Assembly: GCF_900473965.1 (NCBI RefSeq) | Contig: NZ_UCNJ01000025.1 | Span: forward strand, 248,001-312,000 | Source: Synechococcus sp. UW179A | GTDB taxonomy: Bacteria > Cyanobacteriota > Cyanobacteriia > PCC-6307 > Cyanobiaceae | Direction: 5' to 3' | DNA length: 64,000 nt | Shown here: positions 818-58,062 of the stretch, one piece after another | Layout of the letters: the number at the start of each line of letters is the position of its first letter | How positions within the stretch are numbered: the first letter of the stretch is position 1 | Notes under the pieces: model-generated | What the model was told of the DNA's origin: nothing | The model's input: the letters and a program-made list of their open reading frames with translations, nothing else | The model's database searches: none | Program-made: the position numbers and the translations under genes

Positions 818-1081
818 CTAGTTTACCTTACACCACCCATCACTGAGTTTTATCTTACCCACGCTAGTCCTATAAATACACTCCAGACACCACGCTCCGC
901 CAGCCACGGCTTCCAGTTCCTCTTCACTGAGTTCAGCGATCTTATCAGCAGTGAATTCGTGGCCGTGTTCTTTAGCGATCCCTACGATGTCTTCAGGAGT
1001 CTTTGCTGCCTTTAGTTTGTCTTGAAGACTTTTGTCGCCTTTGACCTTCTCAAGAAAGGCTTTGAGTTGTTCTTCTGACAT
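818..1081 (-). CDS. Nif11-leader lanthipeptide precursor (prochlorosin-like)
   Basis: This 87-residue peptide has a Nif11-type leader (residues 1-62): it opens MSEEQLKAFLEKVK, has an amphipathic helix in the middle, and ends LSEEELEAVAGG. Gly61-Gly62 is a typical double-glycine site for C39 peptidases. The 25-residue core (63-87) contains three Cys (core positions 3, 6 and 22) and three Ser/Thr (10, 11 and 18), so up to three thioether rings are possible. Conserved leader with variable core is known for prochlorosins made by ProcM-type LanM enzymes. A LanM and its export operon lie at 46384-57113; that this peptide is their substrate is inference. No strong Shine-Dalgarno is visible. The gene has its own terminator and sits beside a phage terminase remnant. 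Confidence 0.92.
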   Translation of the reverse strand: MSEEQLKAFLEKVKGDKSLQDKLKAAKTPEDIVGIAKEHGHEFTADKIAELSEEELEAVAGGAWCLECIYRTSVGKIKLSDGWCKVN

Positions 1082-12882: not shown

Positions 12883-13638
12883 CTAAAATAATCTATAACT
12901 CTCGTATGACTGTGCTTGATTGAATTGATTCATTAACGCAATTAATGCTTGTTTAATGTCTGGGATATTGTTTGATTCAAGAGCCTGGGCAAGTTGTTTG
13001 AGTTCTTGCTGTGAAAGGTTGTCTTCTGCCCACGCAAGAAGTGCGTTCAAAGATTCTTTGCCTCCTACAATAGAAAGTATGCTTTCAGCTGATTCACCAC
13101 TAGACTGTGCTGTTGATTGTGAATTCTGATTCGTAGGCCTAGTACAATAATTCACAAATAAAGATATCACTTCTGAAGCTGGTCTCAGTTCCATATCAAA
13201 AGCTTCGAGCTCCATCATCTTGTCCCAGCCATTGTACTGCCGAAGAATCTGTGCATAATGAGGCGCCTGTTCTTTTAAGCCTCTAAGCATTCTTGGGTGA
13301 TACTCCGCCTTCCATAGCAAACCGCCATTGCAGGCCTGCATGACATGAGCACTTTCATGAGCCAACACTTCCCAAACAGCACTAATATCATTGAAATCAA
13401 TATTGTTTGAGCAAAAAACAAGCCGATCTCCACCTCCTCCTTCGGTGGGTGCTTGATAAAAACCCAGTGTATTTGAATCACAAGTAGTCTTTTCAACTTT
13501 TGTGCCAGTCTGTTGAACGTAAGTAATCAGCAGCTCAATATCTTTTGGTGAATCAGCATAGGCTGTCGGGGGAAAAGCCAATAAATTCGCTGATTGGATG
13601 AGAGCGACTGTGGTAATGAAACACTTCAGTTTAGTCAT
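12883..13638 (-). CDS. Exported HExxH metallopeptidase-like protein
   Basis: This 251-residue protein has a signal peptide (MTKLKCFITTVALIQSANLLAF) and a zinc-peptidase motif H94-E95-S-A-H98 in the stretch VLAHESAHVMQAC. Acidic residues 45-50 positions later (KMMELEAFDME) could supply the third ligand, as in gluzincin-type enzymes. It has four Cys in the mature domain, then a low-complexity Gln/Ser linker and a helical tail that ends SYESYRLF. The gene begins five bases after the COP23 gene stops, so the two are almost certainly co-transcribed. Substrate and family are not known from the sequence. Confidence 0.75.
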   Translation of the reverse strand: MTKLKCFITTVALIQSANLLAFPPTAYADSPKDIELLITYVQQTGTKVEKTTCDSNTLGFYQAPTEGGGGDRLVFCSNNIDFNDISAVWEVLAHESAHVMQACNGGLLWKAEYHPRMLRGLKEQAPHYAQILRQYNGWDKMMELEAFDMELRPASEVISLFVNYCTRPTNQNSQSTAQSSGESAESILSIVGGKESLNALLAWAEDNLSQQELKQLAQALESNNIPDIKQALIALMNQFNQAQSYESYRLF

Positions 13639-44727: not shown

Positions 44728-46235
44728 GTGGATGTTTCCAGCAGTGGTTCCAGATTCACATGTTGCTCAAAGGCATCGGCCAATCGGTCGAGCAGGGCGT
44801 CCCTCTGCCGACTGTGGTGGGGTTGTTGCTCACAGAGCTCCGGCAGTCCCCGCCTGTGTCGAAGGCGATTCAGCCAACGTCGTCGCCAGGGTCCGTTCTC
44901 GAAGATTCCATGGAGATAAGTTCCTGAAGTGGTCTCACACACCCAACCCAGGTCTTGATCCGCACTGAATGCATCGCAGTCCTCGATGGCTTCGCTGGTT
45001 CCACGATGCAGTTCGAACCCCTCCACCTCCAGTCTGGGTTGTTGATCTGGCCACAGCACGAGGGCTTGCCGCTGATGCAGAGCTTTTTCGCCGCTGAACA
45101 CTGTTCGCAGTGGGAGAAGACCAAGGCCGGCGACATGGGCATCAGATTGCCCTGGAGGACCGTCGCCCTCCAGTCCATGCGGATCGTGCAGTTCCATCCC
45201 GAGCATCTGCATGCCGCCACAGATGCCGAACAGCTCACCGCCGTTCTGGGCATAGCGGATCAGATGAGCTTCCAGGCCGCTGCTGCGCAGAGAGGCAAGA
45301 TCCCGAAGGGTTTGTTTGCTTCCTGGGATCACCACTGCATCGGGGGACCCAAGTGGTTCACCCGGTGCGATCCAGCGCAGCTCAACCGTTGGCTCCGCCT
45401 CAAGGGGGTCAAGATCGGAGAAGTTGCTCAGTGAGGGGAGTTTCAACACGGCGATCTCAAGCTCGGCACTGCGCTTGCGCCCACGCCTTTCAAGCAGGTC
45501 CAAAGAGTCTTCAGGAGGGAAGAGTTCGTCAAGCCACGGCATGACTCCCAGGACCGGAATACCTGTGTTGGTGTCGAGCCAGCGTCGACCTTCGTCGAAG
45601 AGTTCTCTTCTGCCTCGGAACCGATTGATCAGCAGCCCATGGATGAGTCGCCGTTCATCGGGTTTCATCAACTGGAGAGTGCCGACGATCTGGGCGAAGA
45701 CGCCTCCCCGTTCAATATCGGCAACCAGCAGGCAATTGGCTTGCAGATACTTGGCTAAACGCAGGTTGGTGAGATCGCGTGATTGCAGGTTCACCTCCAC
45801 CGGGCTGCCTGCTCCCTCAAGCACCAATCTTCCGCCAGGATGGCTGGCCTGCAGTTCATCAAGCCCCCTGCGGATTGCGGCCCAGCCGGAATCGAACCAA
45901 TCCCTGTAGTAATGCTCTGCTCTGCAAGTCCCAGCTGAGTCTCCGAGGTGAATGACCTCGCTTGTGGAGTCGCCCTGGGGTTTGAGCAATACAGGGTTCA
46001 TGGCATGCACCGGTTCGAGACCGGCGGCCCAGGCTTGCAATGCCTGGGAGTAGGCCATTTCACCCCCTTCCTGATCAACCCAGGCGTTGTTGCTCATGTT
46101 TTGGCCCTTGAAAGGAAGGGGTGTTTCGCCTCGCCGTTTCAGCACTCTGCAGAGCGCTGCGGTCATTAGCGATTTACCGGCGCCACTGCTGGTGCCTAGC
46201 ACCATCAGTGGCGTCGGACGGAACGTTTTGCTCAC
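44724..46235 (-). CDS. cobQ: Cobyric acid synthase
   Basis: This 503-residue enzyme amidates adenosyl-cobyrinic acid a,c-diamide using glutamine and ATP in cobalamin synthesis. The N-terminal DTBS-like ATPase has [17 protein letters not shown] (P-loop) and [10 protein letters not shown]. The C-terminal type 1 amidotransferase has [11 protein letters not shown] with the nucleophile Cys and the late His in [10 protein letters not shown]. It is the first gene of the packed operon cobQ-fdx-clc-eamA. A divergent promoter region separates it from the TolC gene at 46384. Confidence 0.96.
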
Positions 46236-46383
46236 TACGCTTCGCCCTGATTTATACGATGCAGCATTGCAGTGTGTTCTTCACATCACAGAAATTCTGG
46301 AGGCTCGGGACCATATCCGCTGCAAAGTCTTGTGGACAAATCCAAAATTTGTGATTTGATGACTACGATTAATGAGGTAATCG

Positions 46384-47991
46384 TTGCTTCGAACCAGGCA
46401 AGCCAAAAGCACGTTCGGAGTCGTTATCGGTTTGCTTCCAATCAGTCTTCTGTTTCCGTTGACTTATGCGCAAGTCGCAGAATCTGGATCCAATGTTCAG
46501 GTCAATGCTGTTGGAGCAGTCAGTCAGGTTTCCGGGCAAGAAACTCTCTCAACCGAGCAGCAGGCTGATCAGCTTCTGGCAAGACTGAGTGCATTGCGAG
46601 AGAGAATTGATCAGTCTGCTCGCAAAATTTCACTTGATGAAGCAATTGCGCTTGGAATTCGCAATAACCCTGAACTGGTTTCAGCCTTTCGATCCATTCA
46701 GGAATATGAGTGGCAATTGATTGCTGCTCAGCGTCAGTGGTATCCCACATTTCAAATCAGTAACGGTGCACCTACGCTTGGCCTGGATGTTGTTACTTAT
46801 ACCACTAAGTACTATAATGACCCCAACAGAGAATCCACTAGCACGTCTCCTAATAGTGCTATAAATAGTGAGCCCCTCTCAATATCTCAATATAATAATA
46901 CCTTAAACTTTCAACCCAATGCGTCTATTTCATGGAATTTCATTGATCCTACTCGTCAGCCCGATATCAACGCGGCGTCTGAAGCCCTGCGTCAGCAAAA
47001 GTTGCTATTCGAGGTCAGCGCGCGAGATTTGATTCTCAATATTCAGACTTCGTATTTTGCTTTGCAAAGTACGCGACAGTTAATTGGTGAGTTTTATCAA
47101 ATATATGATATCAACCGTCAGCTTCTCGAAGTCAATAAAGCGCGTTATGAAATTCGTTTGGTGTCCATGCTGGCTCTGGCTCAGACACAGACTCAGCTCT
47201 ATAATCAGTTGAGTCAATTGTTGGGATACACCAATCGATTTATTGAGGAATCAGCAACTCTTGCGATGCGCCTGGGCTTGCCTTCCGATGTTCTTGCCTT
47301 GCCTGACGAAAAGGCCAATCTTTATCGAGACTGGTCTATGACGTTGTCTGAAACAATCGATCGCGCAGTTGAATCACGAGAGGAGATTCTTGCCAGTCTT
47401 GCTGCTGCAGAAGAAGCGCGTTGGGAAGGGATCAGCAAGATGAACAGCTATTTGCCGATTATTTTGTTGTATGGACAGGGTTCTCTTTCGATGGAAAGCG
47501 GTGTGATTAACGGCTTACCCGGCCGTGATAATACTTTTAGTGAACAACTTTTCACCACCTGGAATGGTGCCGTTGGCCTGGGATTTGAATGGACCTGGGA
47601 CGGAGGGGTTGATGCGGCCATTGCTCGTTCTGATGATGCTCAGGAAGAGATGGAGCGTTCCAGGGCCGAGACGAATCGTCTCAAGGCCGTTCAGCAGGTT
47701 CGCTCCAGTTTTGGCCAGTATGAAACTTCGCGTGTTGCCGTCGACAGCGCACGCCTTGCCTACAAGTCGGCTCAAGTGGCTCAGGAAGCAGCCAGGGCCC
47801 GTTATGAGATTGGCCTTGGAGACATCACATCCATTGTCCAGACTATTGAACAGCTGGGAACCGCTTCCGTGACATTGTCTGAGTCCATACTTAATTATAA
47901 TAAATCCGTAGCCCAGCTCTATCGATACTCGGCGACTTGGCCAAGTGACAGTGATCAATTAGTGCGTCAGCAGGAGAAAAGCCTGAGATGA
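46384..47991 (+). CDS. TolC-type outer-membrane efflux protein
   Basis: This 535-residue protein (TTG start) has a signal peptide (STFGVVIGLLPISLLFPLTYA). The TolC repeat pattern follows: SLDEAIALGIRNNPELVSAF, a long alpha-barrel region with many Gln/Ser helices, and a second unit near ARYEIGLGDITSIVQTIEQL. It should form the outer-membrane channel of the exporter whose other parts follow directly: HlyD, two ABC transporters, then LanM. The stop overlaps the HlyD start by four bases. Confidence 0.92.
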   Translation: MLRTRQAKSTFGVVIGLLPISLLFPLTYAQVAESGSNVQVNAVGAVSQVSGQETLSTEQQADQLLARLSALRERIDQSARKISLDEAIALGIRNNPELVSAFRSIQEYEWQLIAAQRQWYPTFQISNGAPTLGLDVVTYTTKYYNDPNRESTSTSPNSAINSEPLSISQYNNTLNFQPNASISWNFIDPTRQPDINAASEALRQQKLLFEVSARDLILNIQTSYFALQSTRQLIGEFYQIYDINRQLLEVNKARYEIRLVSMLALAQTQTQLYNQLSQLLGYTNRFIEESATLAMRLGLPSDVLALPDEKANLYRDWSMTLSETIDRAVESREEILASLAAAEEARWEGISKMNSYLPIILLYGQGSLSMESGVINGLPGRDNTFSEQLFTTWNGAVGLGFEWTWDGGVDAAIARSDDAQEEMERSRAETNRLKAVQQVRSSFGQYETSRVAVDSARLAYKSAQVAQEAARARYEIGLGDITSIVQTIEQLGTASVTLSESILNYNKSVAQLYRYSATWPSDSDQLVRQQEKSLR

Positions 47992-49382
47992 GAGAAATCT
48001 TCGAAAAGCGTGCCCTGCGCAAACGTCACCAGGCAGGAGATAAGCATACTCCAATTGTTGTTCTTTCTCCGCCTCTACGCATCACTCTGGGGCTTGGGGT
48101 TGCTTTGGCCGCAGTAGGTGTTATCTGGGCATTTCTGGCAAAAATACCGATTGAGGTTAAAGGCACGGGTGTTCTGCTGCCTGTTGGAGAGATCAACCGA
48201 GTTCGGGCTCAGGTGTCCGGTATCACCCGCTGGATGTTTGCTGAAGAGCAAAAAGACTGGGTTGCTGATGTTCAGAAATTCCAGCTTCAGCCCGATCAGC
48301 TTTCAGATGCAGCTGTATTGGATCTCTCGCGTCGCATCCTCCGTACTTATTCAACTCCTGAGTTTTCTGCTCCACAAACCAATGGTGTACTTTCAGATGA
48401 AAGGATGTTCCCCAAGGGAACTTTGTTGATCTGGCTGCAGTCGCTTCAGGAGCAGGAGTCGTTGCAGGCACAGGTTGACACGCTCGCCTCGGTTGGCCGT
48501 CTCAATCGTGTTCAGCAACAAACACTGATTCAAAAACAATCGATTCTCGAACAAGAGCTCAAGAGCAGAGAAGCTTTCCTTAACTCGATGCGCGATTTAA
48601 CGAAAAAAGGTTTCGTTAGCAAGCCAACCATCCTTCAAAATCAAGCTGAAGTTGACAATCTCAAATCCAAAGTTTTTTCCAACCGCGATTCTTTGGTTAA
48701 CTTGCAGACTCAATTGCAGCAGTCATTCATCAAGCTGCGTAAGTCGCTTGCACAGATGATTTCGAATGGATTTGTTTTTGCTGATAACGACTTATATATC
48801 CGCCAGGTGATTCCCAACAATGGTGAAGGGGTGTCCCAGGGAGATCTCTTATTGCTGCTAAGTCGTCATTCGTTGAGCAGCCCTGTGCAGATCCCTGTAT
48901 TCCTCTCCGAGCGTGAATCAGCTCAGGTCACTGTTGGTATGTCGGTGCTTGTCACCCCGGTGGGAATGCGTCGTTCTGAGGTGGGAGGAATACTTGGGCG
49001 CGTTGTGCAGATGTCTGAATTGCCTAGCGGGGATAAGGATCTGGAGGCTCGTATTGGTTCCAGTAGCCTGGCCAAGGTGATTCAACAGCGTGAACCCAGT
49101 CCCACGCTTGCGATTGTTGAACTGCAACGCTCCCCTCAAGACCGTGGCGGGAATCGTGGTGGCTATGTCTGGAATTCCAAGGGTGATTTGCCTTTTGCGC
49201 CCAAAACCGCCGATCAGCTCAATGTCTCGATCACAACTCGTCGTGTAGCGCCCATTTCCTTGGTGATTCCACGACTGAGGCTGTTGCTGGGGCTGGCTCC
49301 ACCTGAAACCCCTCCAATGAAGGATCGTCATTCAGATCAATCGTCGTCCTTGTCAACCGGTATTCAAAAGGTGCCTGGCTGA
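47988..49382 (+). CDS. HlyD-family adaptor (NHLM bacteriocin secretion type)
   Basis: This 464-residue protein has one N-terminal membrane segment (ITLGLGVALAAVGVIWAFLA) and a short lipoyl-like half (VKGTGVLLPVGEINRVRAQ). A coiled-coil hairpin (about 150-260) follows, and a C-terminal beta domain with SQGDLLLLLSRH and VGMSVLVTPVGMRRSEVGG. This matches the membrane-fusion proteins of NHLM-type peptide export systems, which join the inner-membrane ABC unit to TolC. It overlaps both neighbours (four bases and one base), which supports one polycistron. Confidence 0.92.
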   Translation: MREIFEKRALRKRHQAGDKHTPIVVLSPPLRITLGLGVALAAVGVIWAFLAKIPIEVKGTGVLLPVGEINRVRAQVSGITRWMFAEEQKDWVADVQKFQLQPDQLSDAAVLDLSRRILRTYSTPEFSAPQTNGVLSDERMFPKGTLLIWLQSLQEQESLQAQVDTLASVGRLNRVQQQTLIQKQSILEQELKSREAFLNSMRDLTKKGFVSKPTILQNQAEVDNLKSKVFSNRDSLVNLQTQLQQSFIKLRKSLAQMISNGFVFADNDLYIRQVIPNNGEGVSQGDLLLLLSRHSLSSPVQIPVFLSERESAQVTVGMSVLVTPVGMRRSEVGGILGRVVQMSELPSGDKDLEARIGSSSLAKVIQQREPSPTLAIVELQRSPQDRGGNRGGYVWNSKGDLPFAPKTADQLNVSITTRRVAPISLVIPRLRLLLGLAPPETPPMKDRHSDQSSSLSTGIQKVPG

Positions 49383-51574
49383 TGAAGTCCTCCGCTTCGC
49401 GTCGGATCAAGGCCACCACTGTTCTGCAGTATGAAGCGACTGAGTGTGGTGCTGCATCACTGGCCACGATCCTCCGTTACTACGGTCGGATCGTGCCATT
49501 GCCTCAGCTACGGCGCGAATGTGGTGTTAACCGTGATGGTTCCAATGCCCAGCGCGTGCTCCTGGCAGCACGAAGCTACGGGCTTCAAACTAAGGCCTTT
49601 CGCTGTTCCGGTGAGCAGCTTGTCTTGCAGGGACAGTTTCCCTGTGTCGTCTTCTGGGGATTCAACCATTTCCTAGTGCTTGAGGGATTTGACCAGCAGT
49701 ACGCCTATGTGAGCGACCCCGCTGAAGGTCGGGTTCGGATGTTGAAAGGTGAATTCTTTGATCAATTCACCGGTGTTGTGATGGAGTTCAGTCCAGGCCC
49801 GGAATTCAAGCGTGGAGGCCATGACGAATCTCCGCTTTGGATGCTGCCTGGATTGCTGTTGCCTTATCGGAGGCAGGTGCTGAGTCTGCTCCTCGTAGCC
49901 TCGATTCTGCTGATTCCGAATCTCTTAGTTGCAGGTCTGACCTCGTCTTTCATTTCTGATTTCTTACAAGAAGAAAGGCTCTACTTCGGCATTCCCATCG
50001 TCTGGTTGTTGGCATTCAGCTCCGTGCTTTGGCTCATCCTTTTGATCGTTCAGTTTGTCTTGTTGCGTCGGCTTGAACTGTTGCTGTCTAAGAAGTTGAC
50101 CGTTGATCTGTTCGAAAAGCTCTTTTCGGTGCCATGGGCGTTTTTTCAGGTTCGCATGGGGGGAGAACTGGCGTCCAGGATGTTGCTGGGGATGAGAATC
50201 ACCCAGGTCGTTGTTGCACAGTTGCTCCGTTTTGTGGTGAGTATCTGGGCGGCGCTGCTGTTGATGGTCGTCACCTGCCTGATTTCGTTCTGGCTGACAG
50301 CACTAGTTGCAGCGCTCCTTGTCTTCAACCTTTTATTCAATTGGTGGCTCACGGTTCGCCGTTATGACGCCAACCGCAAGCTTGCCATTGAGCAGGGGAA
50401 GGCGCAGGGCCGTGCCCTGCAGGGCATCAACTCCATCGAAACACTCAAAGCGTCCGGACTTGAGTTCGATTTTCTGAGTCAGTGGCAGGGAAATTTCGGA
50501 TCGGTCGTTGAACAGAACCAGTTGCTTGGCGCTCAGCTCGCCTGGTCCAGCATCAGTGCCAGCAGTGCAACCTTGTTACTTCAAGCTCTTGTGATCACTG
50601 TCGGTGGTCTGTTGATCATCGATGGAAGGATTTCTCTGGGTCTGCTTGTTTCGTTTCAGTTCCTTCAAGCCCAGTTAGTGGCGCCGATTTCCACACTTCC
50701 TCAGCTGAGTTCCACCCTTCAGCGTCTGATTGGAAATCTTGGCCGATTATTGGACCTTACGACGACGGCAGATGATCCGCATGTACGCAGTTTTCAGGCT
50801 GCCAGGGATGGATTCGATACGGGAGATCGTCTCCAGGGACGGATCACACTCGAAAGGGTCACCTATGGATTCAATGCCGTTGACCCTCCCTTTATCCCAG
50901 CCCTCGATCTGGATGTTCCGGCTGGGTCAAGGCTGGCGCTAGTGGGTGCCAGTGGATCTGGTAAAACCACTTTGATCCGGATGCTTGCAGGTTTGGTTGA
51001 CCCTCTTCAAGGTCAAATTCTGTTCGACGGTAAGACCTGGGATCAACTGGATGACCAGGTCGTGCGCGGGAGTATCGCTTATGTGCCGCAGCAGGTGTTT
51101 GTTTTCAATGCCAGCCTTCGCGACAACATCACTCTATGGAATCCTGATTTCACTGACGAAGATCTTCAGGCTGCAGCGGCCGATGCTCAACTGCTGGAGA
51201 TGGTCAACTCGCAACCGGAGGCCTTTCAGCGGCAGTTGCGAGATAATGGCAGTGATCTCAGTGGTGGAGAACGCCAGCGTCTTGAGATCTGTCGTGCTCT
51301 GATTCGTCGCCCATCGGTTCTGCTTCTCGACGAAGCCACCAGCTCACTCGATAACGTCACACAACGTCGAGTGATTGATGCCGTCCAAAAGCGTGGCATT
51401 ACTGTCGTTAGTTGTGCGCATCGGCTGGATGCAGCACTGAGTAGTCAACAGGTTCTTGTTCTGGCTCACGGCAAGGTGGTTGAGCTTGGTCATCCTGATG
51501 ACCTGTTGGCTAATCCGGATGGAGCGTTCACGAAGCTCGTGGCCGCTGAACGGCGTGATCAGGTGGAGGTTTGA
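49382..51574 (+). CDS. C39-peptidase ABC exporter (NHLM bacteriocin type)
   Basis: This 730-residue protein begins with a C39 peptidase domain (QYEATECGAASLATILRYYG, catalytic Cys22; His in FWGFNHFLVLEGF; Asp in YVSDPAEG) that cleaves after double-Gly leaders. A six-helix permease follows (about 165-470), then an ABC ATPase with GASGSGKTTLIRM, a signature LSGGERQRLEICRAL and Walker B VLLLDEATSS. It can process and export leader peptides such as the Nif11-type precursor at 818. The next ABC gene starts five bases past its stop. Confidence 0.95.
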   Translation: MKSSASRRIKATTVLQYEATECGAASLATILRYYGRIVPLPQLRRECGVNRDGSNAQRVLLAARSYGLQTKAFRCSGEQLVLQGQFPCVVFWGFNHFLVLEGFDQQYAYVSDPAEGRVRMLKGEFFDQFTGVVMEFSPGPEFKRGGHDESPLWMLPGLLLPYRRQVLSLLLVASILLIPNLLVAGLTSSFISDFLQEERLYFGIPIVWLLAFSSVLWLILLIVQFVLLRRLELLLSKKLTVDLFEKLFSVPWAFFQVRMGGELASRMLLGMRITQVVVAQLLRFVVSIWAALLLMVVTCLISFWLTALVAALLVFNLLFNWWLTVRRYDANRKLAIEQGKAQGRALQGINSIETLKASGLEFDFLSQWQGNFGSVVEQNQLLGAQLAWSSISASSATLLLQALVITVGGLLIIDGRISLGLLVSFQFLQAQLVAPISTLPQLSSTLQRLIGNLGRLLDLTTTADDPHVRSFQAARDGFDTGDRLQGRITLERVTYGFNAVDPPFIPALDLDVPAGSRLALVGASGSGKTTLIRMLAGLVDPLQGQILFDGKTWDQLDDQVVRGSIAYVPQQVFVFNASLRDNITLWNPDFTDEDLQAAAADAQLLEMVNSQPEAFQRQLRDNGSDLSGGERQRLEICRALIRRPSVLLLDEATSSLDNVTQRRVIDAVQKRGITVVSCAHRLDAALSSQQVLVLAHGKVVELGHPDDLLANPDGAFTKLVAAERRDQVEV

Positions 51575-51578
51575 TGGC

Positions 51579-53723
51579 ATGACCGACTCACGCAAACGCG
51601 CTCTTCAGCAGGTCGATCACCTAGAGAACGACCTCCTCTTTGAGGTTGTGGAAGAAGCTGATCCTCAGCGTGATCTTCGACTGATCGGCTTTTGTTTGCG
51701 GCGTCTGGAAGCACCTGCGCAGTCTCTCATTGCCATGCCCGATGCTGATATCAGTTTTCAGCTCGATCACAACGATATTCATCATCGTCGAGTGGACGCA
51801 CCGCGTGAGCCATGGAAACGTGAATTTCCCATGCTGATCGTGAAAGATTTGGCGAATGGTGAACCCCTGGCGTTGTATCGCGAACGTGGTCGGAACTGGT
51901 TCTATTCAGCAGCTCAGGGAAAGCACTGGCTCGTGCCGACGGATATTCGCCTCGACAGAGATGCCTACGAGATCTATCCATCACTGCCGGCCAAGATTCT
52001 TGGCCCCTTAGAGGTGGTCAAATTTGCATTCAGCACGGAGTGGAATGCCATCTGGGCTCTGGTTATTGCCTCTGCTGTAGTGATGACATTTCATCTGTCT
52101 ATTCCGATGTTCACCAATGTTCTGGTGAACCGGATCCTGCCTGAAAACGATAGTGCACTACTGATTGAGGGTTTAGCAATTGTGATTGTAGTGGTGGTGG
52201 GTGTTGCTGCTGCCCAGTATTTGCAGACCATGATGATGCTGCGGATTGAAAGTGTTACGGATCTGCGATTACAGACCGCAGTCTTTGATCGCGTTATGCG
52301 TCTTCCAATGCGCTTCATTTCCAAATACACCACCGGTGATCTTTCCTCGCGTGTTGAATCGATCAATCAATTACGTCAATTACTCGGAAGTGGTGTTCTC
52401 TCGACCTTGCTCACTACAGTCTTCAGCTTGGGTTACTTCGTTCTGATGGTGATTTATGACCGCTCACTAGCCATCTGGGCTGCTTTGTTCACGGTTGTTT
52501 CTCTGACATCTCTGCTCTATCTCACAATTCGTGATATTCAATTGCAAAAACCATTGTTGGAGACTGGAGCTGAGATCACCAATTTCTCACTGCAATCTGT
52601 CATGGGACTTCCGCAAATTCGTAGTTCCGCAACAGAACCGTTTGTTCTGCTTCGCTGGCTGCGCGAGATTAATCGTTATGCGCTGTTGCAATTGCGCAGC
52701 AACTTTTATAACGATGCGATCGAAATGTTCGGGACGCTGGTGAGTCCACTGGCTTCCTTAATGCTGTTCGCACTGGTGACTCACAAACTCCTGGCAACTG
52801 CCAGCAATTCAGCCGAGTTTGAGCTGATTTTGGTGAGCTTTATTTCCTTCAACGCTGCGTTCACAGGATTCAATGCAGCCCTTTCCCAGGCAGCCAATCT
52901 TGCTGCCAATACTTTAGGACGAGCCAGCGTTCTCTGGCAGCGTGCCGAACCAGTGATCTATGCCGAAGTGGAGCGGGGCTATGAACCCGATGCTGTGCAT
53001 CATGACCTGGAGGGTCATTTCCTTTTCAGAGATGTTGTTTACCAGTTTCCGGGTTCTAATGATCCGCTTTATCGCAATCTCAATTTCGAGATCACACCTG
53101 GCCAGCACACGGTGATCACAGGGCCGAGCGGCTGCGGAAAAACCACAATTATCAACATGTTCCTGGGCTTCGTTGAACCTCAGGGGGGTGATTTACTGGT
53201 CGATGGTATTGCGCTGCCTCAGCTCGCCATCCGCCATTACCGCCGTCAGCTCGGTGTTGTTCTGCAGACCGCCCATCTTAATTCCGGCTCGATCTACGAC
53301 ATTGTCTCTGGCGGTCTTGTGACTGAAGAAGATCGAATCTGGGCAGCGCTTGAATCTGCTGCCGTGGCTGATGACGTGGCAGCCATGCCGATGAAGCTCG
53401 AGACGATTGTGATGGATGGGGCAGGCAACATGTCCGGTGGCCAGGCACAAAGAATCGCAATCGCCAGAGCGTTGATTCACCAACCTCGAGTGCTCCTAAT
53501 GGATGAAGCCACCAGTGCTCTGGATCCTCCATCACAACAGCGCATCAATGAAACGGTTCAGTCACTTGGGATTACAAGGATCAGCGTTGCGCACCGTTTG
53601 GCCACCATCCGCGATGCGGACAGGATCATTGTGCTGCGTGATGGTGTAGCCGCTGAAAGCGGAACCTGGGACGAACTTAAACAACACGGCTACCTTGCAG
53701 AAATTCTGTCTAAGGGACACTGA
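51579..53723 (+). CDS. Second ABC exporter subunit (NHLM type, no peptidase)
   Basis: With the ATG at 51579 the protein has 714 residues; the frame is open further upstream inside the previous gene, but that part is the C-terminus of another protein in a different frame. The N-terminal 150 residues form a divergent, peptidase-free domain (LLFEVVEEADPQRDL; WLVPTDIRLDRDAYEIYPSL). Six membrane helices follow, then an ATPase with TGPSGCGKTTIINMFLGF, MSGGQAQRIAIARALIH and LLMDEATSALD. Such pairs of one C39-containing and one peptidase-free ABC protein are known in NHLM peptide systems, where they may work as a heterodimer. Confidence 0.94.
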   Translation: MTDSRKRALQQVDHLENDLLFEVVEEADPQRDLRLIGFCLRRLEAPAQSLIAMPDADISFQLDHNDIHHRRVDAPREPWKREFPMLIVKDLANGEPLALYRERGRNWFYSAAQGKHWLVPTDIRLDRDAYEIYPSLPAKILGPLEVVKFAFSTEWNAIWALVIASAVVMTFHLSIPMFTNVLVNRILPENDSALLIEGLAIVIVVVVGVAAAQYLQTMMMLRIESVTDLRLQTAVFDRVMRLPMRFISKYTTGDLSSRVESINQLRQLLGSGVLSTLLTTVFSLGYFVLMVIYDRSLAIWAALFTVVSLTSLLYLTIRDIQLQKPLLETGAEITNFSLQSVMGLPQIRSSATEPFVLLRWLREINRYALLQLRSNFYNDAIEMFGTLVSPLASLMLFALVTHKLLATASNSAEFELILVSFISFNAAFTGFNAALSQAANLAANTLGRASVLWQRAEPVIYAEVERGYEPDAVHHDLEGHFLFRDVVYQFPGSNDPLYRNLNFEITPGQHTVITGPSGCGKTTIINMFLGFVEPQGGDLLVDGIALPQLAIRHYRRQLGVVLQTAHLNSGSIYDIVSGGLVTEEDRIWAALESAAVADDVAAMPMKLETIVMDGAGNMSGGQAQRIAIARALIHQPRVLLMDEATSALDPPSQQRINETVQSLGITRISVAHRLATIRDADRIIVLRDGVAAESGTWDELKQHGYLAEILSKGH

Positions 53724-53729
53724 GAGACG

Positions 53730-56700
53730 ATGACAGCGCCAAAGACACCCTTTTCCTTGCATCAGATGATGGGCTCTGAAAAGGTTTCGCTCTCTGAATC
53801 ATCTCCTGGCACGCCCATCACTCGCGACGATCTCGAAGACCGGCAGCTAGGGCTTGGTGAAGCCTGGTTAGAAGCGATCGCGCCTCAGGAGCTTGAAAAG
53901 CTTGAGCGTCGCTTTGCATGGTCCGGACTTGATCGTGAGGCTCTTTACAGAGTGCTAGATCAGCTTGAGCAACCTGATGAACCCTCAAGAACGGAGATCT
54001 GGTTTCAGGAGTTGACGTTTCTGCAGGAAGCATTGCGCAGTGATCCTGAACGCGAGCTTGAGCCTTATGTCGAGGAGGTGTCGGAGGCGAATCCTGATCA
54101 GCTCCCTTTCAGCGACCTGTGGCTTCCAGCGGTTGAGGCTTTCGTCGCTCGTCTGCGCAGCAACTTGGTCGATCTCCAGCACCGCAGTATCGATGATCAG
54201 GTTTATCGCTCTCTAGGTCGGTCACTGCTCACCAGGTTGAGCAGTATCTCTGAACAGGCTTTGTTCGAGCAGTTCAACCTACAGAGGCCTCCCGGAGCGA
54301 TGTTGCTGGCTCATCTCGGTACAGATGGCGATGGGCAGGGTCCTCCTGTAAGGGAGTACTACGAGCGTTTCATCAGGGAGTATCGGTGCGATGGATTGGC
54401 CACTTTTTTGGAGACGTTCCCTGTTCTGGGACGTTATCTGGGGCAGGTCTGTGGCGATTGGCAACGGTCCAACGAAACTTTGCTTCGGCGGATTGATGCT
54501 GACGCGATTCCCTTGCAGCAGCTCTTTGGCGTCGAGCCTGAGATGGTTCTATCCGGAGTTCATCAGGGCCTAAGTGATCCCCACAATCATGGTCAGGTTG
54601 TGAGCATTTTGAAGTTCGCTCAAGCCGATGGAAGTTCTTCCGTGCAAGTGGTTTACAAGCCCAAGGACATGGGCGTGGACTTGGCTTATCAACAGGCACT
54701 TGAACATCTCAACAGCGTCAGCACACTGAAGCCGCTGCGCAGTTTGCGGATTTACTGCGGCAACGACTACGGATACATGGAGCATGTCGAGCATCGTCTC
54801 TGTGAAGGAGATGATGAGCAGGAGCGCTTCTATCGCAATGCTGGACGATTGACAGCCGTCCTTCATCTCCTGGGTTGTACGGATTGCCACTACGAGAACC
54901 TGATCGCTTGCGGGGATCAGCTGCTGTTGATCGATACCGAAACTCTTCTTGAGGCCGATTTACCTGATCATGTTTCAGATGCCTCTGATCAACAGACAGC
55001 CCTGTCTCAGTCGAATCTTCAGAAGAGTTTTCAGAATTCAGTGCTTCGATCAGGTTTGATGCCGAACTGGCTTTTTGTCGGTCAGGCCAAGGTCGCTGTC
55101 GATATCAGCGCTCTAGGCATTGCCCCCCCTCTCAAGCCCCTGACGAAGGGGCCGGGTTGGCTGGGGCTGAACAGTGACGGAATGATGGCTGCCCAGATCA
55201 GCCGTCCATCATTGTTGCCCACGAGTCTTCCAGTGGGTGTTGGTGCAACCAACGGTCTCAACGCCCATCTTGAGACGTTCTGCCAGGGATTCCGTGAGCA
55301 GTGCTCTGAATTTGAACGAACGCGTGAGGACTGGATCAGACCCGGTGGAGTGCTCGATCAGTTCCGTGGGCTGCCTCGTCGCATTGTGCTTCGGGCCACC
55401 CGAGTTTATTTCGCATTGCAGCGTCAGCAACTTGAGCCAGCGGCTCTGCGTTCGTCCCTCCGCCAGGGGCTCGTGCTCGAGCAGCTCAGCCGCAGTTTTC
55501 TAATGGCCAGCGAACAACCGCTGCACTGGCCTGTATTTGAAGCTGAATTGCGTCAGATGGAGCGTTTGGATATTCCATTTTTCGTCCATTCCATCGATGG
55601 ACAGGATCTGCCCTTAGTTGACGATATGAAGCCCGTTGAGGGGTTTATGGAAACCAGTGGTCTGGAGTCGAGTCGTCAGCGTATTGCTGAATTGGATCCA
55701 GCAGCCGTTGCGTTCCAGGAGCAATTAATCCGCGGTACGAGCCGTGCGCGCATTTCCACTGAAGTTGGCAGAAGTCCACGAGATGTCGTTGCGCCTAATG
55801 TAGACGTCTTGACGCTTACGCCGGAACAGCTCTATCAAGAGAGCCGTCGTCAGCTCGAGATGCTCGAAGAGATTGCCATTCGCGATGCGGATGGTCTCAT
55901 CGACTGGCTGGGAATGGATCTTGGCAGTGATGGTGAGAGTTTCTGCTTCGGGCCTGTTGGTACTTCGCTTTACGGTGGATCCATCGGTGTTGCTTTACTT
56001 GCAGCCCATTTCGCCGACGAGCCAGGTCCAGCCGAACTGGTCGAGAGTTGTGTGAAACCTCTGCTGCAGATGGGTGAAAAGGACCGGGATGGTCTCCGCC
56101 TGCGCTGGTGGCGTGATCAGGCGCTTGGCTTAAGTGGTTGCGGTGGTTCTCTCCTCTCTATTCAGGAGTTGGCGACTTGGGGACCGGAATCACAGCAGCC
56201 AATGCTCCAGGAGCTGCAGACCAGTCTTATCGAGGCATTGTTGCCGGAGCATATTCGCGCCGACCTCGGTCTCGACATGATCGCTGGTGTGACCGGTCTG
56301 ATGGGACCTCTGCTCAGGGATGGTTCGATACGAGCGCTTGATTTAGCTGTGATTGCCGGAGATCATCTTTTGGGCCTCCAAAACGAACATGGAGCTTGGA
56401 GCGTTCGTGGCAAGCAGCCATTGCTCGGCTTTTCGCATGGCACCGCCGGATATCTCGCTGCGCTTGTCAAGTTAGGGCAGCAGCTGGGTGAGCAGCGTTT
56501 CCTCGATGCGGCAGCCAAGGCTCTCACCTATGAACGAGAGCGTTTTGATGTGGAACACCTCAACTGGCCCGATTACCGAGATCACCAACCCGATGAGCCG
56601 AACAAGTTCATGACCTCTTGGTGCCATGGAGCACCTGGCATCGCCTTGAGCCGGGCTTGTCTGTTTGGCTCTCCTCTCTGGGATGAGCAGTGCGTTGATG

Positions 56701-57113
56701 AAATGGCTAACGCCCTGCAGACACTTACTGCGCTGAGTTTGCCGTTCTGTGATCATCTCTGCTGCGGCACCTTTGGAAATGCCGGCATTCTTCGCGTTGT
56801 GGCTGAGGGGCCATGGGCAAAGTCCGTCACAGAGTCAGTCCGTACAGCTGCAATCAACAGATCGTCTGAGCTTGTTGCTCAGGCTGTCTCCATTGCAGAT
56901 CAAAGTGGCGGAGCTTTCCGTGGTTTTGGAACGTCTGAAGGCAATCTGTTGCTGCCGGGTTGTTTTACAGGCATGTCCGGAATGGGTCTCGCTCTGCTTG
57001 ATCAGATGAATCGCGATGATCGTCTCGGCACGTTGATGACCATTGGCTTGCTTTCACCAGCGGGGGCGATTGCGACGACACCAATGCATGAATCGGCTTC
57101 CAAGGCCAGCTGA
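53730..57113 (+). CDS. lanM: Class II lanthipeptide synthetase LanM (ProcM-like)
   Basis: This 1127-residue enzyme dehydrates Ser/Thr and forms thioether rings. The N-terminal dehydratase half has VVYKPKDMGVDLAYQQ, LHLLGCTDCHYENLIACGD and LLIDTETLLEADLP, the kinase-like active-site motifs. The C-terminal LanC-like cyclase has GFSHGTAGYLAAL, SWCHGAPGIALSRA and CDHLCCGTFGNAGIL. The zinc ligands would be Cys965, Cys1011 and Cys1012: the CCG form typical of substrate-tolerant ProcM-type enzymes, in contrast to the usual Cys-Cys-His set. It is the last gene of the export operon and starts six bases after the ABC gene. No precursor gene is adjacent. Confidence 0.95.
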   Translation: MTAPKTPFSLHQMMGSEKVSLSESSPGTPITRDDLEDRQLGLGEAWLEAIAPQELEKLERRFAWSGLDREALYRVLDQLEQPDEPSRTEIWFQELTFLQEALRSDPERELEPYVEEVSEANPDQLPFSDLWLPAVEAFVARLRSNLVDLQHRSIDDQVYRSLGRSLLTRLSSISEQALFEQFNLQRPPGAMLLAHLGTDGDGQGPPVREYYERFIREYRCDGLATFLETFPVLGRYLGQVCGDWQRSNETLLRRIDADAIPLQQLFGVEPEMVLSGVHQGLSDPHNHGQVVSILKFAQADGSSSVQVVYKPKDMGVDLAYQQALEHLNSVSTLKPLRSLRIYCGNDYGYMEHVEHRLCEGDDEQERFYRNAGRLTAVLHLLGCTDCHYENLIACGDQLLLIDTETLLEADLPDHVSDASDQQTALSQSNLQKSFQNSVLRSGLMPNWLFVGQAKVAVDISALGIAPPLKPLTKGPGWLGLNSDGMMAAQISRPSLLPTSLPVGVGATNGLNAHLETFCQGFREQCSEFERTREDWIRPGGVLDQFRGLPRRIVLRATRVYFALQRQQLEPAALRSSLRQGLVLEQLSRSFLMASEQPLHWPVFEAELRQMERLDIPFFVHSIDGQDLPLVDDMKPVEGFMETSGLESSRQRIAELDPAAVAFQEQLIRGTSRARISTEVGRSPRDVVAPNVDVLTLTPEQLYQESRRQLEMLEEIAIRDADGLIDWLGMDLGSDGESFCFGPVGTSLYGGSIGVALLAAHFADEPGPAELVESCVKPLLQMGEKDRDGLRLRWWRDQALGLSGCGGSLLSIQELATWGPESQQPMLQELQTSLIEALLPEHIRADLGLDMIAGVTGLMGPLLRDGSIRALDLAVIAGDHLLGLQNEHGAWSVRGKQPLLGFSHGTAGYLAALVKLGQQLGEQRFLDAAAKALTYERERFDVEHLNWPDYRDHQPDEPNKFMTSWCHGAPGIALSRACLFGSPLWDEQCVDEMANALQTLTALSLPFCDHLCCGTFGNAGILRVVAEGPWAKSVTESVRTAAINRSSELVAQAVSIADQSGGAFRGFGTSEGNLLLPGCFTGMSGMGLALLDQMNRDDRLGTLMTIGLLSPAGAIATTPMHESASKAS

Positions 57114-57434
57114 AGGGATCGTTTCCGGCCAGGGCATCAGCACCTCCCTGCCAAGAGGGGTCAAACGGACCCGTTCCGTTAGCCCCTGACCGTCAACCTC
57201 CCGACGCAACACTCCCAGTTGAATCAGCCAGATCAGCAGATCCTCTGTTTCCCTGGCATTCAGCCGCCGTCGGGTCTGAAACGACCAGTCTGATTGAGCG
57301 ACTAATTCAGTGCTGCTCAGGGCTGCTTCTTCGACGTTGCGGTAGAAGCTGCGTTGGAAAGGCAGGCAGCACAAGGCTTGGCGTGCCCGCCCCAGAGCAT
57401 GCCTTGTGAGTTCGCTGGGGTCCTGAAGAGTCAC
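57054..57434 (-). CDS. Npun_F0494-family protein
   Basis: With the GTG at 57434 this is a 126-residue protein with the family blocks [40 protein letters not shown] and [16 protein letters not shown]. These resemble a winged-helix fold and are conserved across cyanobacteria. Its function is unknown. The stop lies inside the 3' end of lanM (59-base antisense overlap), and the start is divergent from maf. An upstream open frame overlaps maf and is not counted. Confidence 0.75.
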
Positions 57435-57489
57435 GCGTGAGCTGCTGTCAGTGCCATTCTCGTTCTCAGCGCCGCTAACTGAGACACCA

Positions 57490-58062
57490 ATGTTGCTGCT
57501 GGCTTCAGCGTCCCAAGCAAGACGTCGCCTTCTAGAACAGGCTGCCATTCCCCATCGCGTTCAGGTCAGCGGTGTCGATGAAGAGGCCATTCAGGATTCC
57601 GATCCGACCGAATTGGTGAGGCGTCTGGCGCAGGCCAAGGCGATCGCTGTCCGGAACCAGCTCAGACGCAATGAAATTACAGCTGTGCTCGGCTGTGATT
57701 CGTTGTTTGTCTTCGCCGGTCAGGTGTACGGAAAGCCCACTGATTCCGCTCAGGCAGTGGAACGCTGGCAACACATGCGTGGATCCTGGGGTGATCTGCA
57801 TACGGGCCACTGCCTGTTGCCAGGCAAGGGTGTGACGTCGCAGCAGCCTCTGCTGGCGTGTGTGACCACACGAGTGTTGTTTGCCGATCTCAGCAATCAA
57901 GAGATTGAAGAGTATGTCGCCAGTGGCGAACCGCTTCGCTGTGCCGGAGGCTTTGCCCTGGAAGGTCTTGGAAGCTCCTTTGTGGAACGTCTCGACGGTT
58001 GTTATTCAAACGTGATCGGGCTCAGCTTGCCGCTGCTGCGCCGTTGGCTACCGCAGGTTTGA
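57490..58062 (+). CDS. maf: Maf-family nucleotide pyrophosphatase
   Basis: This 190-residue protein starts [19 protein letters not shown], the typical Maf N-terminus with the SxSxRR motif. It continues with GVDEEAI, the [11 protein letters not shown] helix, the [20 protein letters not shown] block (Asp nucleophile region), and the [27 protein letters not shown] end motif. Maf enzymes hydrolyse non-canonical nucleotides to monophosphates. Confidence 0.95.

Follow-up and report, generated by a model that had tools for sequence, protein, structure and literature searches.

How are the many lanthipeptide precursors of a marine Synechococcus matured and carried out of the cell, and does the enzyme that modifies them come with an exporter of its own? 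To our knowledge, prochlorosins have no demonstrated function, and a 2017 PNAS paper is said to deal with the radiation of lanthipeptides. The question is raised by a 10.7 kb segment of Synechococcus sp. UW179A (source genome of 3,057,835 bases in 35 contigs, 99.97% complete), located at 46384–57113 of the window, the 64,000-nucleotide stretch of DNA that was analysed. The open reading frame listing and family scans place five consecutive plus-strand genes in this segment. In the order 5′→3′ they encode a TolC-like outer-membrane channel (46384..47991, 535 aa), an HlyD-like periplasmic adaptor (47988..49382, 464 aa), an ABC exporter with an N-terminal C39 peptidase (ABC1; 49382..51574, 730 aa), a second ABC exporter protein (ABC2; 51579..53723, 714 aa) and the class II lanthipeptide synthetase LanM (53730..57113, 1127 aa).

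The tight coupling described in an earlier note on this DNA, with neighbours overlapping or at most six bases apart, is borne out by the coordinates: the TolC-like and HlyD-like genes overlap by 4 bases, the HlyD-like gene and ABC1 by 1 base, ABC1 and ABC2 are 4 bases apart, and ABC2 and LanM 6 bases. The TolC-like gene has a TTG start with a GAGG at 46374–46377, and ABC2 has an ATG start at 51579, its mechanical reading frame beginning earlier, at a TTG at 51456. Within 46200–57700, neither promoter-like sites (5 observed versus 7.7 expected) nor terminator-like sites (15 versus 12.3) gave a signal, so that it is from gene spacing alone that we infer that the five genes form one operon. Rfam at gathering thresholds returned no match within the window, and a scan of the window for tRNA found none.

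The LanM belongs to the ProcM/SyncM type. It scored 700.5 bits against TIGR03897 (cut-off 304) and contains the Pfam domains DUF4135 and LANC_like. The earlier reading of a 1127-residue protein with zinc ligands Cys965, Cys1011 and Cys1012 was accurate for all three residues, and together with Gly1013 they are invariant throughout an alignment of 24 LanM rows. Residues of the dehydratase domain are also conserved across these rows, and we take them to be the catalytic ones, as in work on CylM; Arg674 is an arginine in 21 of the 24. Thr677 was considered as a conserved residue and rejected, its position varying freely in the same rows. The CCG zinc site is a mark of the ProcM group (PMC10783134). 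Searching all 35 contigs found one LanM in the genome; a candidate for a second, at C12:385911–386309, was discarded at 16.2 bits only, with 25% over 141 residues.

A search of the whole genome for Nif11 leaders, proposed in the earlier note and now carried out, returned 109 places over the cut-off, two pieces of one frame being counted once. Peptides were read at 108 of them, one lying outside the stretches taken for reading, and 83 of the 108 had the prochlorosin-like form, namely a site of the double-Gly type and, after it, a core containing Cys and Ser/Thr. The other 25 comprised 8 with a site and no Cys, 11 with no site and 6 with a stop inside the leader. The sole Nif11 precursor in the window (818..1081, minus strand, 87 aa) scored 90.4 bits against TIGR03798, over the cut-off of 32.3; it has a double Gly followed by the core AWCLECIYRTSVGKIKLSDGWCKVN and is a likely substrate of the LanM. 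At a distance of 45 kb it is also the leader nearest to the LanM, in agreement with the view that the cassette has no precursor beside it, and no Nif11 match at E ≤ 1 is listed between its gene and the end of the contig (C25:249,081–316,567). Because the leaders are scattered and none lies beside the LanM, the precursors are dispersed, and the setting of one LanM against 109 leaders would fit an enzyme with many substrates. Two Nif11 peptides near contig ends, at C17:76800–76997 and C19:1166–1363, are identical over what was read and may be a single repeat that the assembly has divided.

The four proteins encoded upstream of the LanM together resemble a known type of exporter. The TolC-like protein matched PF02321 (OEP) at 135.1 bits (cut-off 22) and TIGR01844 at 62.7 bits, below the cut-off of 225.15, and is 84–86% identical across all 535 amino acids in three relatives. 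The HlyD-like protein, for which Pfam gave no match, scored 79.1 bits against TIGR03794 (cut-off 156.2), ABC1 698.7 bits against TIGR03796 (cut-off 853.3) and ABC2 515.6 bits against TIGR03797 (cut-off 709.4), each below the respective value. ABC1 contains Peptidase_C39 (PF03412) and ABC domains, and the C39 residues Cys22, His96 and Asp112 are all present, the Asp being kept in 19 of 21 aligned rows. Its ATPase motifs are complete (Walker A with Lys528, signature, Walker B and H-loop), so that the protein joins C39 catalytic residues to a full ATPase motif set, the combination that characterizes PCAT/AMS proteins; its closest match in the PDB is PCAT1 (E 5.9e-88). The NHLM/NHLP export cassette is made up of three genes, those of TIGR03794, TIGR03796 and TIGR03797 (PMC2887384). 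The likeness lies in the adjacency, close to a RiPP system, of genes for HlyD, a C39-ABC protein and an ABC protein with no C39 match, and the NHLM/NHLP families are the best NCBIfam matches here, yet all three scores fall below the curated equivalog cut-offs; in addition, a TolC gene belongs to the unit in UW179A, which is a difference. HlyD, ABC1 and ABC2 are a divergent relative of the NHLM cassette and not a strict equivalog member.

ABC2 had been described as peptidase-free, and Pfam indeed finds no C39 match in it; TIGR03797 proteins are likewise described as having no peptidase domain (Haft et al, PMC2887384). A fold prediction may qualify this description. In the best AlphaFold2 model of residues 1–190, built on three sequences and with a pLDDT of 70.5 (50–55 for the other four models), residues 26–136 are predicted to adopt a C39-like fold. 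The best structural match of this three-sequence model reached a Z score of 9.8 over 108 residues with an rmsd of 3.1; the first 11 of 11 rows were ComA, PCAT1, HlyB, LahT or CLD, and other papain-like folds came after them. Foldseek on the same model returned nothing at E ≤ 0.001, with HlyB best at 8.3e-3, and hhalign of the N-terminal domain (15 ABC2 rows, of which two, from G260 and G156, were out of frame and count as noise) against the C39 rows gave a probability of 0.3%, that is, no profile similarity. The profile of the domain against PDB sequences gave no match at E ≤ 1. A second model had a pLDDT of 52.9 and a best Z of 4.2, its first 12 rows all being C39 or C39-like domains, and was not counted as confirmation because it was built on the same three sequences. 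The domain has a single cysteine, Cys39, present in all three rows. The predicted fold points, if weakly, to a likely degenerate C39-like domain at the N-terminus of ABC2.

We consider it very probable that the five genes serve the prochlorosin/synechococsin system as its unit for maturation and export. Judging from family membership and conserved residues, the single LanM would dehydrate Ser/Thr residues and join them to Cys in many scattered Nif11-leader peptides, the C39 domain of ABC1 would then cut after the double Gly, and a conduit of ABC1/ABC2, HlyD and TolC would move the product through both membranes in a single step. More speculatively, ABC2 would probably form a pair with ABC1 and hold the leaders by a putative, non-catalytic C39-like domain. 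ABC1 and ABC2 could instead each form a homodimeric exporter and differ in their substrates, for each has its Walker A, signature, Walker B and H-loop motifs in full, such that neither needs the ATP site of a partner; against this, the two are found side by side in all the cassettes that were compared, as they are in the published NHLM cassette, and we regard separate homodimers as rather unlikely.

If the five genes act as a maturation and export unit, the other exporters of the genome also have to be considered. The earlier note had named a separate ProcM/ProcT pair elsewhere as one finding that would speak against it. The genome holds no second LanM, and it does hold three other loci with a C39-ABC protein (C12:15180, C9:83004 and C18:251609). 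The proposal of a self-contained outer-membrane export route stands as regards the full set of TolC, HlyD and two ABC proteins beside the LanM, and is weakened by these three loci. That one of them provides the main prochlorosin exporter would be in line with their each having an HlyD, a C39-type ABC protein and an ABC2 relative, with the TolC relatives at C9 and C18, and with two Nif11 genes about 11–12 kb from the C12 locus; however, their C39-ABC proteins are only 29–34% identical to ABC1 of the window, none of the loci has a LanM and in the C18 protein the C39 Cys is replaced by Ser, and we hold this explanation to be improbable. In Prochlorococcus MIT9313, the C39 domain of one transporter, encoded by one of two C39 genes, was inactive in vitro (PMC6363468), and export without dedicated transporters has been considered possible (PMC10783134).

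A comparison of gene order around LanM among relatives, also suggested by the earlier note, bears more directly on the proposed LanM–exporter unit. Among 31 LanM-bearing loci (L066–L096, some being one contig counted twice), the cassette adjoined the LanM at 13 (12 distinct genomes besides the window). At 5 of the 31, from five relatives, the arrangement was the co-directional TolC-HlyD-ABC1-ABC2-LanM of the window, and at 8 (seven distinct genomes) the cassette lay tail to tail with the LanM. The DNA examined at the remaining 18 loci (14 distinct), several of them short contigs, contained no cassette. Since the same order recurs in five relatives, it is not due to chance. The LanM tree unites the co-directional rows and G186, in which LanM and cassette lie apart, in a single supported clade. 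In the ABC1 tree, all six co-directional rows fall into one clade, and the convergent rows make up no single supported clade; both trees are rooted at the midpoint and have some long branches, such that the age order of the two orientations is not readable from them.

The association also holds at the level of genomes. In a family set of 300, LanM at ≥990 bits was found in 15 genomes and an ABC1 relative at ≥60% identity in 15, with 13 having both, two LanM only (G029 and G186) and two ABC1 only (G156 and G236). Close ABC1 relatives were thus present in 13/15 top-LanM genomes versus 2/285 others (Fisher p 5.5e-19, ancestry ignored). With all 22 long-LanM genomes included (13/22), the value was 2.5e-15, and within the genus, 11/11 LanM genomes versus 1/13 others gave 4.8e-6, ancestry again being ignored in both. 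These results show that the LanM–exporter linkage is common to many marine picocyanobacteria and is kept in two orientations.

Two members of the comparison stand out in other respects. The relative G289 (3.3 Mb, one contig) has two LanM genes, which share 90% and 44% identity with that of the window, and at least 150 Nif11 leaders over the cut-off (150 of 276 candidates scored), many more than the 83 given for MIT9509. The alphaproteobacterium Roseovarius lutimaris encodes a LanM (L069, 10001–13153) that is 48% identical to that of the window. The LanM tree places it among picocyanobacterial sequences, and a Nif11-like reading frame adjoins it at 13334–13621; a transfer between phyla is possible.

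Two genomes in which the pair is apart retain traces of the missing partner. G071 has an intact LanM near 280 kb and a cassette near 1.056 Mb. With 2,410,873 bases, it is presumably the same size as the genome of Prochlorococcus MIT9313. Its cassette carries, in the convergent place, a C-terminal stub of LanM (L131:7431–7631, plus strand, 47 residues) that shares 81% identity with the full LanM of G071 (E 7e-18) and ends in VLND-stop, like the intact convergent LanM of G120; the LanM of G071 itself ends otherwise. In G120, the stop codons of LanM and ABC2 overlap by about ten bases. Reciprocally, in Prochlorococcus MIT 0701 (L067, contig C7 of G029), where no ABC1 relative was found at E ≤ 1e-150, a C-terminal stub of ABC2 (L084:7580–7825, minus strand) comes after the intact LanM, in the convergent position; it has 82 residues, with one in-frame stop and 61% identity to the ABC2 of G253 (E 7e-23). 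Because a stub of the partner lies exactly at the junction in both genomes, the separation looks secondary, and LanM and cassette would seem once to have stood tail to tail in the lineage of G071 and MIT 0701 and later to have parted. Next to the cassettes in G156 and G236 no LanM stub was found, and the intact LanM genes of G071 and G186 had no ABC2 stub at their side. A further C-terminal LanM stub, of 83 residues and with 88% identity to LanM from G186, lies in G216 (L135:8179–8436, plus strand) and is probably a recent loss of LanM.

That the cassette exports something else, such as unmodified Nif11 or other double-Gly peptides, and adjoins the LanM by accident is very improbable, for although the cassette is retained in G156 and G236, where LanM gave no match, and Nif11 genes (E ≤ 1e-8) occur in 266 of the 300 family genomes versus LanM in 25, the adjacency recurs in two orientations, the stubs are reciprocal and co-occurrence is strong. 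For the proposed maturation and export unit, we infer that the cassette would export the Nif11-leader peptides. A fuller model is possible and we advance it tentatively: the exporter would be a heterodimer of ABC1, with its cutting C39 domain, and ABC2, with a degenerate C39-like domain docking the leader; LanM joined to the exporter would be the old state, and the dispersed ProcM of MIT9313 a later break-up in which the lanM stub marks the true exporter.

The cluster is of a kind already known and reported in close relatives. One LanM with the full set of TolC, HlyD and two ABC proteins and scattered precursors was confirmed here; the suggestion that such a unit is not standard fails, as the 2023 survey of marine Synechococcus reports LanM in nine strains with TolC, HlyD, ABC and C39 proteins nearby (PMC10783134), and a close ABC1 accompanies nearly all of the top-scoring LanM genes above. 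The nearest parallel is the SyncM/synechococsin system, which likewise has one ProcM-like LanM with CCG, dozens of scattered Nif11 precursors and TolC, HlyD, ABC and C39 genes near the LanM (PMC10783134). Precursor numbers are given as 83 in MIT9509 and 79 in UW179A (PMC10783134), and as 79 for SyncM of MIT9509 (PMC9872173); the 83 counted here equal the published 83, and there is perhaps no difference between the systems. Group IV of the cyanobacterial clusters, defined in 2011 by LanM with HlyD and a short C39 transporter, comprises seven clusters, five of them also with a second ABC protein (PMC3140520). The likeness is that LanM is clustered with HlyD and C39-ABC here too; the difference is that TolC is part of the unit, of which the available part of that source makes no mention for group IV. 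ProcM of MIT9313 is similar in type and in its dispersed Nif11 precursors, but stands alone according to the same part of that source (PMC3140520), whereas the LanM of the window is joined to an exporter. The stub in G071, the genome of MIT9313 size, suggests that ProcM of MIT9313 may once have been joined to one as well.

The interest of the locus lies mainly in the junction stubs and the possible C39-like domain of ABC2, for neither of which a description was found in titles and abstract openings of mostly open-access literature. In each genome the stubs point to one particular cassette as belonging with LanM, and the use of the finding would be the assignment of an exporter to a system whose export route is left open in the available part of the 2023 survey (PMC10783134).
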